From Planctomycetota bacterium (GTDB lineage Bacteria; Planctomycetota; Planctomycetia; Pirellulales; Lacipirellulaceae): a stretch of DNA of 64,000 nucleotides. Numbering within the stretch: the first letter of the stretch is position 1; each line of letters starts with the position of its first letter. Both the position numbers and the translations under genes were made by a program. This document shows, in pieces, positions 54,226 to 63,670 of this stretch. The stretch is from the NCBI GenBank assembly GCA_029259915.1, contig JAJDED010000020.1:62001-126000 (forward strand). Reading direction: 5' to 3'. The notes below the pieces were generated by a model that saw only the letters and a program-made list of their open reading frames with translations, searched no databases and was not told the origin of the DNA.

Positions 54226-55293
54226 CTATTTCTGACGATCAAGTAATTTCTGAAACTCAGGCGTTGCGTGTTCGACGATCTCCTGATCCCGACGTACTAA
54301 AAACAGCGCCGCAACCTCGTTTGCCACGCACCAATCATACCCCAACTCGTCTCCCATCACCAACAGGGCGGTCGCCCAGGCGTCGGCTTGCATGCACGTG
54401 TCGGCGATTACGGAAACGGCCGCCATATTGTGTAATACAGGCCGACCAGTATGCGGATCGATGGTATGCGAATAACGTACGCCTTCGTACTCAAAAAAAT
54501 TGCGGTAATCACCCGATGTGGCCAGCGCCGCGTCACGAAGCTCGATAACTTTCTGCAAAGATCGGCCCGCGGCGTTCGGTGTTTCCACGCCAATTTGCCA
54601 CAACTTATCACCGGGCTTCGTGCCGCGTGTGCGCACTTCACCGCCAATTTCAACCATCGAACTGGAATACCCACCTTTGTCGAGCAGTGCTGAAATTTCG
54701 TCGACCGCGTAACCCTTGGCGATCGCCGAGAGGTCGACATACAACCCCGGCACCGACTTCCGCAGCGCCGGCGGATCGCGTCGCACTTCGACCTTGTCAA
54801 AACCCACATCTGCTAACGTCATGGCGATATCTGCTTCAGCGGGCGGCAGCACTTGGTCCTTCTCAGGCCCAAATCCCCAAAGATTTACTGCTGGACCCAC
54901 CGTCGGATCGAACGCGCCGCCCGAGTCCACGGCGACTTTCAGTGCAAATTCAATCACAAGTACAGTCTCCGCCGAGACTGCAAACCAATCGTTCCCGGTG
55001 GTTTGATTGAACTTCGACAGCTCCGACTCGGCATCGTAGGTCGACATCTGCCGATTGATCTCGGCTAACCGCGTGTCGACTTGTTCTTGGATAGCAGTCA
55101 GAACAGACTGAGGGGATTTTGTGACGATGCTCACCGAGTACCGCGTGCCCATTGTCGGTCCAGCAAAGGACGACACCTCGAGCCGCGGAACATCAGACGC
55201 GGGACGACACGCACTCAAGCAAACGACGCTCAATAGCAGACCGGTCGACATCCAGAAACGGAATCGCGACGCATTACCCGCCGAAGTCGTCAT
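54226..55293 (-). CDS. apbE: FAD:protein FMN transferase (ApbE), lipoprotein
   Basis: This periplasmic enzyme attaches FMN to threonines of NqrB and NqrC by a phosphoester bond. It has a lipoprotein signal ([13 protein letters not shown]), the FAD-binding [11 protein letters not shown] near the N-terminus, [21 protein letters not shown] and the Mg-binding [11 protein letters not shown]. Its start overlaps the end of nqrF by about 20 nt; an inner ATG at 55251 begins the lipoprotein signal and is an alternative. Location in the nqr operon fits its role. Confidence 0.93.
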
Positions 55294-56494
55294 ACGCGAT
55301 GTTCTCTTTCTCGACTCCCAAATCGTCAAGCATTTTGAACACTGCCGCGTTCATCATCGGCGGGCCGCAGATGTAGTATTCGATATCTTCGGGGGCAGGA
55401 TGCTTTTTCAAGTAATTTTCGAGCAACACCTGATGGATGAACCCCGTGTAGCCGTCCCAATTGTCCTCGGGCTGCGGTTCGGAAAGAGCGATATTAAACT
55501 TAAAATTGGGAAATTCCTTTTCGATCTCGCGGAATTGATCAACATAGAACAACTCGCGCATACTCCGTCCGCCATACCAGTAAGAAACCTTGCGGTTTGT
55601 CTTGCGGTTCTTAAACAGCTCAAAAATATGGCTTCGCAGGGGTGCCATGCCCGCTCCGCCGCCGATGTAAACCATCTCAGAGTCGGTGTCTTTGATGAAG
55701 AACTCACCGTACGGGCCGGAGATTGTCACTTCGTCCCCAGGCTTCCGACTAAAGATGTAGGAAGACATTTTCCCCGGCGGCACGTTAGGCATTCTGGGCG
55801 GCGGGCTGGCCACGCGGATATTGAGCATGATGATGCCCTTTTCGCCGGGATAGTTCGCCATCGAGTAAGCGCGGGTCACCGGCTCGTCGACTTTCGAGAC
55901 ATATCGCCAAACGTCGTATTTGTCCCAATCAGATCGATATTCTTCCTCGATGTTGAAGTCCTTGTAAGTCGCCTCGTGCGGAGGACATTCGATCTGAATG
56001 TAGCCGCCGCTTTTGAAGCCGACTTCTTCGCCCTCGGGCAATTCGATGACAAATTCCTTGATGAACGTGGCGACGTTGTGGTTGGAGCGCACCTTGCAGA
56101 GCCACTTTTTGGTTTCAAACGCCTCGGGCGGCACTTCGATGCGCATGTCCTGCTTGACCGCCACCTGGCAGGAAAGCCGACAACCCTCGCGGGCTTCCCG
56201 ACGATTGATGTGCGTGCGCTCGGTCGGCAGGATATCGCCGCCACCTGCGAGCACTTTCACTTCGCATTGGGCGCAAGTCCCCCCGCCCCCGCAGGCAGAG
56301 GAAACCAAAATCCCAGCATCGGAGAGCGCCCCCAGCAACTTTCCGCCGACGGGTACCTCGATCGTTTTTTGCTCGTTGATCGATAGCGTAACATTGCCAC
56401 TGGGAACCAACCGCGCCTTGGCCGCCAGAATCAGCACAACCAACGCCAGCACAACCAGCGTAAACATCGCGACGCCTAAGAGTATTTCGAGCAT
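55274..56494 (-). CDS. nqrF: Na+-translocating NADH:quinone reductase subunit F
   Basis: This is the NADH-oxidising subunit. An N-terminal membrane anchor (about 4-25) precedes a 2Fe-2S ferredoxin domain with Cys68, Cys74, Cys77 and Cys109. An FAD domain with RAYSMANYP and a C-terminal NADH domain with [13 protein letters not shown] follow. Length (406) is normal. No Shine-Dalgarno site is visible before the ATG: the 12 nt upstream read GGCTCCCCCT-like, and directly beyond lies the repeat arm of the inserted four-helix-bundle element. Confidence 0.95.
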
Positions 56495-56505
56495 AGGGGG
56501 AGCCT

Positions 56506-56545
56506 TTAGCGGTTAGCAATTAGCTGTTAGCTTTTAGCTTTTAGG
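56506..56545 (+). repeat. Left inverted arm: five TTAGCNN heptamers
   Basis: TTAGC recurs at exactly 7-nt spacing at 56506, 56513, 56520, 56527 and 56534, followed by TTAGG. It is the inverted counterpart of the arm at 56901-56935. The first stop codon of the four-helix-bundle gene (TAA on the minus strand, 56534-56536) lies inside this arm, and the last residues Pro-Lys-Ser are encoded by it. Confidence 0.85.
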
Positions 56546-56896
56546 GGATCGCAAGCGTTTGCTTAATGAGCCAAGCATCTTTTTAATTTCATTGATTTTC
56601 ATGTCCAGCTCTTGGTATGTGTCTTTGTCTAGCAGCCCTAAGTCGTGCGCGAGCTGAAAATGGTATTCGACTTCACATGCCGACCCGCCGGCAATTTCGA
56701 CAAACCTCCGGAAATCGCCATCGGTTTCCCGTCCACCACCTTCGGCAATGTTTGCCGGTATCGAGGCAGCAGCGCGACGGAGTTGTGATGTAAGCCCAAA
56801 TTTCTCATTGTTCGGAAATTTTTCAGTCACCCGATAAACGGTCAACGTCAAAGCATGCGATTTCTTCCAAACTTCAAGATTACGAAAGTTTCTCAT
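56534..56896 (-). CDS. Four-helix-bundle protein (23S rRNA intervening-sequence protein family)
   Basis: The 120-residue product has the family signature RNLEVWKKSHALTLTVYRVTEKFPNNEKFGLTSQLRRAAASIPANIAEGGGR followed by the EVEYHFQLAHDLGLLD segment. This is a complete member of the four-helix-bundle/IVP family, first seen inside intervening sequences of 23S rRNA and also found as free genes of unknown function. Inverted heptamer arms flank it closely (right arm ends 5 nt before the ATG). It splits nqrE from nqrF. It lies in the same orientation as the operon, so it would be in the nqr mRNA. Confidence 0.88.
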   Translation of the reverse strand: MRNFRNLEVWKKSHALTLTVYRVTEKFPNNEKFGLTSQLRRAAASIPANIAEGGGRETDGDFRRFVEIAGGSACEVEYHFQLAHDLGLLDKDTYQELDMKINEIKKMLGSLSKRLRSPKS

Positions 56897-56900
56897 AGTA

Positions 56901-56935
56901 AAAAGCTAACAGCTAACAGCTAATAGCTAACAGCT
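56901..56935 (+). repeat. Right inverted arm: GCTAANN heptamers
   Basis: GCTAA recurs at 7-nt spacing at 56905, 56912, 56919 and 56926, with a degenerate fifth unit at 56933. It is the reverse complement of the left arm at 56506-56545 over about 35 nt with few mismatches, so the nqr mRNA could fold into a stem with the four-helix-bundle gene in its loop. Confidence 0.85.
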
Positions 56936-56938
56936 CTC

Positions 56939-57550
56939 TCACATTCCTCCAAACGACATAAAGGCCAGCGCCATCAAGCCGGCAGTCATAAATGTGATGC
57001 CGAGGCCTTTCAATCCGTCGGGAACGTCGCTGTACTTAAGCTTTTCGCGGATCCCGGCGAGTGCGGCAATGGCCAAAGCCCAACCGAAACCCGAACCAAA
57101 TCCAAAGACGCAACTTTCGGTGAAATTGTAATCGCGTTCCTGCATGAAGAGCGAACCGCCCAGGATGGCGCAGTTCACTGTGATCAACGGTAAGAAGATT
57201 CCGAGTTGGTTGAAGAGCGTTGGGAAAAACCGATCGAGCGCCATTTCCAGGATTTGCACCATCGCAGCAATCGTGCCGATGAACGTGATGAGCGTCAGAA
57301 AACTTAGGTCGACGTCTACCAGCGAGCTGCTGAGCCACGAAAGTGCACCCTTTTTCAGCAGGTGTTGGTAGAGCAAATTGTTGGCAGGAATTGTGATTGT
57401 TTGAATCACGATCACGGCGATGCCTAGGCCGACCGCGGTCTTTACGGTTTTCGATACGGCAAGAAACGTACACATGCCCAAGAAAAAGGCGAGCGCCAAG
57501 TTCTCGACAAACACCGACTTGAGAAAGATGCTCAGATATTCTTCCATCAA
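56939..57550 (-). CDS. nqrE: Na+-translocating NADH:quinone reductase subunit E
   Basis: This membrane subunit has about six hydrophobic helices. Conserved cysteines Cys27 (FLGMCTF) and Cys127 (TVNCAIL) match the residues that, with NqrD, hold the intramembrane 2Fe-2S centre. Length (203) is normal. The start is 1 nt after the nqrD stop, so the two are co-translated. The TGA stop is followed within a few nt by the repeat arm of the inserted element. Confidence 0.95.
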
Positions 57551-63390: not shown

Positions 63391-63670
63391 TAGTCCCAAA
63401 GGGACGAAATATAATAGCCCAGGGCAAGGCCAGGCGAGCGTAGCGAGACAGGCCGCAGCCCAGGGTTTAGTGTGCATACAAATGGTTGGCCGAGCGAGAA
63501 GCTTTGCCAGCAATCGGCACTCCACCGAGGCCGAGATCAAACCGCGGCCGGATTTCGTCCTCGGTCGCGCTCCGTTATCTGGCAGCGTTAACTGCTCGGA
63601 CGATGGTGATTTCAAATTTCTAACCCAGGGCTCGCGCCCTGGGCTATTATATTTTGCCCCTTCAGGGCAA
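63391..63670. repeat. Inverted repeat element (AATATAATAGCCCAGGG)
   Basis: The left arm (63391-63469) and right arm (63621-63670) share, in inverted orientation, a GGGAC/GGGGC start, then AATATAATAGCCCAGGGC and a CCCAGGGTT end. The left arm has about 29 nt extra. About 150 nt of unrelated sequence lie between. Resembles REP-like palindromes. Confidence 0.7.

Follow-up and report, generated by a model that had tools for sequence, protein, structure and literature searches.

The feature at the nqrE–nqrF junction of the window, the whole 64,000-nt stretch of planctomycete DNA analysed here, is probably a small mobile element of ~430 bp that has heptamer arrays inverted at both ends and a single gene for a four-helix-bundle protein (IVP) inside, a reading to which we assign a probability of about 0.6. 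In this reading the copy represents a kind of small mobile element ended by arrays of recognition heptamers, which would have short gene-less relatives and would include the rRNA intervening sequences as a special case. In the comparisons presented below, arms and gene form a unit at many unrelated sites in many phyla; short gene-less versions are dispersed in the source genome; particular sites carry an insertion in some relatives and none in others; and the insertions occupy intergenic positions, for the most part behind the upstream gene and in sense to it. That the element moves is shown by these comparisons only.

The IVP gene and its arms in the nqr operon

The complete IVP gene that the first-pass annotation had placed between nqrE and nqrF is indeed there, in sense orientation within the minus-strand nqr operon (Table 1). 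Its 120-aa product passes the curated cut-offs of both PF05635 (140.5 bits, cut-off 33.8) and TIGR02436 (134.6 bits, cut-off 24), and its relatives in the PDB, by sequence, are 2gsc and 2rld. The inverted TTAGCNN-type arms described in the same annotation are also present: they extend over 35 nt with 91% complementarity, the left one encodes, as claimed, the C-terminal end of IVP together with its stop codon (plus-strand TTA, 56534–56536), and the right one is 7 nt apart from the IVP ATG. Inspection by eye revealed no SD sequence in front of the IVP gene. The earlier statement that nqrF lacks a visible ribosome-binding site was too strong, because a weak SD-like AAAGG (56503–56507), at the edge of the arm, stands 8 nt before the nqrF ATG.

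Table 1. Features of the IVP element and of its neighbours in the window.
Feature	Coordinates	Strand	Evidence
IVP (four-helix-bundle) gene, 120 aa	56534..56896	-	PF05635, TIGR02436; PDB relatives 2gsc, 2rld
Left arm, TTAGCNN type, 5.6 copies; 3' of the IVP gene on the gene strand	56506..56544	+	TRF, repeat search
Right arm, GCTAANN type, 4.6 copies; 5' of the IVP gene	56904..56935	+	TRF, repeat search, sequence
nqrE, upstream operon gene	56939..57550	-	TIGR01940, 330 bits
nqrF, downstream operon gene	55274..56494	-	TIGR01941, 679 bits

The element thus has the anatomy of the proposed heptamer-armed IVP element, period-7 inverted arms flanking an IVP gene. It shares complementary ends with the 23S rRNA intervening sequences and lies at the nqrE–nqrF junction, not inside a 23S rRNA helix. 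No rRNA family was found in the window, for which Rfam gives a single family, Acido-Lenti-1, with a 51.6-bit match near the window end (63624–63669, plus strand). There is no transposase ORF between the arms, the enclosed ORF being that of IVP with Pfam matches to PF05635 and, weakly, bAvd; the element is therefore not a classical insertion sequence, which would have such an ORF inside.

The nqrE–nqrF junction in related genomes

Comparison of the nqrF loci of 30 genomes, the source genome and the 29 best matches among 59 others searched, revealed an IVP gene at this junction in just two, the source, with a gap of 447 nt, and G004, with one of 440 nt, so that the gene is not fixed in all relatives. 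The G004 protein is 61% identical to that of the window and its gene has arms of its own heptamer; this nqr locus (L081) coincides with L127 from Bythopirellula polymerisocia Pla144, whose IVP is identical. When the junction palindromes were scored against 60 shuffles each, a short period-7 palindrome was found in five genomes (L076, L084, L088, L090 and L091), one of period 8 or 9 in two (L078 and L072) and other inverted repeats in L087 and L070, with L095 marginal; the gap is just 6–8 nt in three genomes, and in the remaining 17 junctions no inverted repeat above shuffles was found. Given an IVP gene in two of 30 junctions and other palindromes, repeats or short gaps in others, nqrE–nqrF is a frequently occupied place at which insertions are gained, lost or replaced, and the element is no fixed part of the operon. 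At the G009 junction (L070), a TTAGC arm remnant like that of the window adjoins a long inverted repeat that is not made of heptamers, as well as other repeats.

In the protein tree, one weakly supported group contains both nqr-site IVPs together with a further IVP from G004. The tree does not join the nqr-site pair as sisters, and the two may or may not share their descent at this site. No target-site duplication or exact empty site was resolved, the orthologous junctions of these distant relatives being too diverged.

Inverted arms around IVP genes in other genomes

The search for further arm-plus-gene units that the first-pass annotation had called for showed them to be abundant. Our sample comprised 142 IVP ORFs in 134 loci (the source, its relatives and the best 80 loci of a longer list from named genomes), of which 138 entered the arm test, four with less than 100 nt of flank being left out. 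An inverted-arm score of at least 12, our threshold, was reached by 107 of the 138 genes, versus 12 of 409 flank pairs taken from mismatched loci and three of 197 other ORFs of 95–180 aa; at a score of at least 15 the counts were 87/138, 5/409 and 3/197, respectively. The armed genes include one duplicate, as L127 and L081 represent a single IVP at a single nqr site; without it the count is 106 of 137. Arms were found for 52 of 59 genes in the relatives and for 55 of 79 in the named genomes; the latter span 19 phylum-level groups, as assigned from record titles, with arms in 14 of them and period-7 arms in 11. The arms were below the threshold in 31 of the 138 genes, and five of the 19 groups, represented by one gene each, had none.

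The preferred unit is the heptamer. Lag-7 scores of at least 10 were obtained for 65 of 138 upstream and 69 of 138 downstream flanks, versus three and four, respectively, of the 197 control ORFs; the other lags from 4 to 15, except 14, gave at most five upstream and 12 downstream, both maxima being at lag 8. The best period among the 107 armed genes was 7 in 94 cases and 8 in 10, with a median arm of 30 nt.

The sequence of the heptamer varies between loci, yet it tracks that of the IVP protein: the Mantel correlation was 0.30 (n = 93), and 0.26 (n = 44) and 0.40 (n = 49) for the named genomes and the relatives taken separately, with 0 of 999 permutations reaching the observed value in each case. 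Heptamer profiles had similarity above 0.85 in 60% of the 72 pairs with 60–75% protein identity versus 1.5% of the 2592 pairs with 40–50%. Among the matches listed, T[T/C]AGC arms surround IVP genes close to that of the window in loci of Acidobacteriota, Chloroflexota, Cyanobacteriota, Nitrospirota and Pseudomonadota. This correlation fits recognition of the array by the protein, and plain co-inheritance may also give it.

Some loci deserve separate mention. On Gemmatirosa plasmid 1 (L394) an IVP match is flanked by CTCCTGC-like 7-nt repeats that, judged by eye, are direct rather than inverted. Two of the matches listed, L158 and L201, are IVP relatives whose contigs bear the labels Methanophagales and Nanoarchaeota, possibly through contamination. 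Recent transposition of the element alone between two Calothrix plasmids was considered and rejected, as the neighbouring genes are common to both too.

Short palindromes without a gene in the source genome

The source genome encodes four PF05635 genes. The window copy is not the only one with heptamer arms, since L002 and L003 carry inverted arms of heptamers other than TTAGCNN; the arm score of L004 (10.5) is below the threshold. The search for copies with the same arms yielded short TTAGCNN-type palindromes. With at most one mismatch, TTAGCNNTTAGCNNTTAGC (the TTAGCNN triple) has 120 matches on both strands of the source genome, versus five for the reversed control, and the paired pattern has 28 per strand versus none for the control (overlapping matches, from 16 distinct places). 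We extracted 19 such IVP-less palindromes, with spacers of 17–37 nt and two to seven units per arm. The number of units per arm is therefore not fixed at five, and the idea that five units mirror a pentameric ring was dropped for this reason. The spacers resemble one another (mean local score 7.03 versus 5.86 for shuffled spacers; z = 11.9, 0 of 200), with a z-score that A/T runs inflate, the shuffles being mononucleotide ones. No IVP gene ends were seen in these spacers by eye, despite the common heptamer, and the short palindromes therefore do not look like plain internal deletions of the element. None of the 18 sites checked lies inside a called ORF. Further short palindromes of similar type (L237 and L231) and others of period 8–10 are found in the same genome, including two of period 10 (L239, 1643–1699; L240, 9586–9652).

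At three palindrome sites, all close behind a stop codon, the orthologous junctions of three of three, 11 of 11 and 10 of 10 relatives were judged by eye to lack the palindrome, counting only relatives with both flanking genes in view. These three palindromes look like lineage-specific insertions. One of the orthologous sites, L382, has a different heptamer-like stretch.

Ordinary intergenic regulatory palindromes, such as terminators or sites of global regulators, could mimic such a distribution if an IVP gene had been captured by chance and was then inherited within the operon. The paired tandem octa- and heptanucleotides of Geobacter metallireducens, which resemble the arrays described here in having 8- or 7-nt units on opposite strands at dispersed places, have been described as predicted binding sites of global regulators, and, unlike here, no linked gene appears in the passages concerned (PMC2700814); the window-like arm remnant at the same junction in G009 also fits this explanation. 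However, the proportion of IVP genes with arms, mostly of period 7 and with locus-specific heptamers, as well as the lineage-specific insertions, make it highly unlikely.

When facing units were compared in the 19 short palindromes and in the window element, their variable letters matched in 34 of 88 cases (0.386), versus 0.389 expected, and the two arms prefer the same unit and the same bases. As these letters are not complementary beyond what composition gives, the arms have not been kept as a perfect stem; this favours seeing them as inverted arrays of recognition sites.

GxxExxY genes and possible dependence on the encoded protein

Genes of another family, PF13366 (GxxExxY), have similar surroundings. 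In the relatives (L287–L316), 28 of the 29 GxxExxY genes in the test have inverted arms with scores of at least 12 (the thirtieth locus, L295, without a usable ORF, was left out), versus 145 of 812 mismatched-locus pairs, a control that is inflated as the arms share a consensus. The best period of these flanks is 8 in 13 cases, 9 in 13, 10 in two and 12 in one, and never 7; a tandem score of at least 10 is reached by at most seven of the 29 per side at any one period, and never at lag 7. We read GxxExxY as a likely second protein with its own unit length, 8–9 nt, in a design parallel to that of IVP.

Stretches of several genomes were scanned for tandem units of periods 7–10 with an inverted partner within 110 nt. 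Three genomes with both IVP and GxxExxY had 21 (G000), four (G006) and 15 (G023) palindromes per 400 kb, 40 in 1.2 Mb, with the G000 stretches being a non-random choice of contigs known through heptamer hits. Two genomes free of both families had none (G013, 176.5 kb; G051, 400 kb; together 576.5 kb), and G040, with four IVP genes and no GxxExxY, had a single one, of period 7, in 400 kb. This test of dependence is weak: the counts are small, TTAGCNN arrays mostly fall below the threshold of the scan, and one palindrome may be counted under two periods.

The same genomes bear on the possibility that HUH transposases of the host (Y1, REP-associated) move the hairpins, with IVP as a passenger or regulator. 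Y1_Tnp is encoded in 54 of 59 genomes, with 10 matches in the source genome and just one each in the IVP-free G013 and G051, and the palindromic intergenic copies resemble REPs. G040, however, has four IVP genes and no Y1_Tnp (PF01797) match, and the one locus of this genome that was read (L098) has arms; in addition, the two protein families go with different periods, and REPs are not known to have tandem 7-nt arrays. We therefore regard movement by Y1 transposases as improbable.

Insertion sites, orientation and the link to rRNA

Of the 142 IVP genes, 126 had a called ORF of 100 aa or more on either side, the neighbours being ORFs called by length rather than annotated genes. Among these 126, the IVP gene shares its strand with the upstream neighbour in 112 cases (p = 4e-12) and with the downstream neighbour in 96 (p = 3e-4). 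The baseline, 559/914, was drawn from just three Planctomycetota genomes, and other named genomes contribute 69 of the 126 genes. Four relatives (L102, L113, L115 and L118) have a common upstream gene end, which we take to be that of sucC, and three of them a sucD-like start downstream; on a Pseudanabaena plasmid the site is at cas6–cas4. The upstream neighbour is on the opposite strand in 14 of the 126 cases, and in two plasmid copies the IVP gene runs antisense to the genes on either side: in L321 (Nostoc plasmid pNe_5) it lies between subunits of ribonucleotide reductase and in L319 (a Calothrix plasmid) between secretion genes.

An IVP match of 38.8% identity on AZO_p2 of Azospirillum lipoferum, an open frame, lies inside a 23S rRNA gene (L322, 786–3984), between arms of 36 nt with 86% complementarity that consist of GAGGACG/GATGACA heptamers. 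A scan of L001–L004, L098–L226 and L317–L322 with eight 23S motifs found only this locus in rRNA. Gene junctions are thus the ordinary habitat of IVP genes in this sample, and the first-pass view of an rRNA element that settled in mRNA is not supported as to its direction; the kinship with the rRNA inserts, seen in a shared anatomy, and mobility on an evolutionary scale are supported.

These data also bear on an RNA-level selfish element, one whose arms would be kept as an RNase III stem, which would be tolerated since it is cut out of the transcript or splits it, and which would move via RNA by reverse transcription. The sense bias agrees with this, as do the arms of the same kind in the Azospirillum rRNA form, the RNase III cleavage of the Coxiella intervening sequence (PMC4990558) and the predicted RNA fold of the window element, in which, as the first-pass annotation had supposed, the arms pair (z = -3.4; none of 100 shuffles was equally stable). 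However, the lack of complementarity above composition in the variable letters speaks against such an element, as do the 14 opposite-strand neighbours and the two antisense plasmid copies, and the sense bias itself may reflect a need for read-through transcription. A reverse transcriptase as the mobilising agent was rejected, as the source genome, 93% complete, has no PF00078 (RVT_1) matches. Overall, an RNA-level element seems rather unlikely.

Relation to known systems

The closest counterparts of the window element are those intervening sequences of 23S rRNA that contain an IVP/S23p ORF, which have been described in Coxiella and Leptospira (PMC4990558) and which share with it a PF05635-type ORF, inverted ends and heptamer arrays, as read here in Azospirillum and as published for Coxiella. 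According to passages of that paper, the Coxiella sequence has tandem GACAGAT heptamers before S23p, their number differing among strains, and is excised by RNase III, which cuts at the first repeat; the function of S23p is given as unknown and the origin of the rRNA intervening sequences as unclear (PMC4990558). In contrast, the window element lies in a protein operon, has no rRNA helix, and its processing is only putative.

The GGGAATC heptamer repeats of Xanthomonas also form inverted heptamer pairs (70 and 75), yet according to the paper describing them they are in general not associated with mobile elements, and its text makes no mention of S23 or four-helix proteins (PMC4692102). Xanthomonas campestris is both the species of a solved IVP structure (2gsc, Xcc0516) and one with reported GGGAATC inverted pairs (PMC4692102).

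PF05635 has been noted to resemble Avd, the accessory protein of diversity-generating retroelements (PMC10053308), and the window IVP is distantly akin to it by sequence. Its scores are, however, below the cut-offs (bAvd, 27.5 of 40 bits; NF033474, 34.2 of 80 bits) and the source genome has no RVT_1 match, so that the element, by Avd score and reverse transcriptase, is no diversity-generating retroelement.

MITEs and REPINs are short dispersed inverted-repeat elements without genes, like the short palindromes described here. The palindromes differ from them in ending in arrays of tandem units and in having no known transposase.

Among the titles, abstracts and passages of the open PMC literature searched, we found no paper that connects genes of the PF05635 or GxxExxY family with arms of tandem units at gene junctions; the nearest reports are PMC2700814, PMC4692102, PMC4679880, PMC4990558 and PMC10053308.

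A possible mechanism and its implications

We know of no catalytic motif in IVP. In the mechanism that we propose for the small mobile element, the ring formed by IVP, which is homopentameric in the Xanthomonas relative of solved structure (PMC4990558), would recognise the heptamer array and would be needed for the spread or upkeep of both the long and the short forms. Transcription of the nqr operon would express the window IVP, and the transcribed arms could form an imperfect stem, possibly cut by RNase III as published for the rRNA forms.

More tentatively, and at somewhat less than even odds, these elements could represent a new class of mobile elements, each consisting of a small protein and inverted arrays of its recognition unit. 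Each protein family would determine the length of its unit, 7 nt in the case of the IVP pentamer and 8–9 nt in that of GxxExxY, a protein of nuclease fold, and the unit sequence would diverge along with the protein. The protein would read the array and, acting in trans, spread palindromes without a gene into gene junctions; the rRNA intervening sequences would be copies that landed in rRNA.

Such a scheme would join three separate literatures, those on rRNA intervening sequences, on bacterial heptamer repeats and on intergenic palindromes, and the parallel design around GxxExxY suggests a general principle. For the IVP family, the locus-specific heptamer arms found across phyla would give these genes a concrete and testable function, the recognition of the array.
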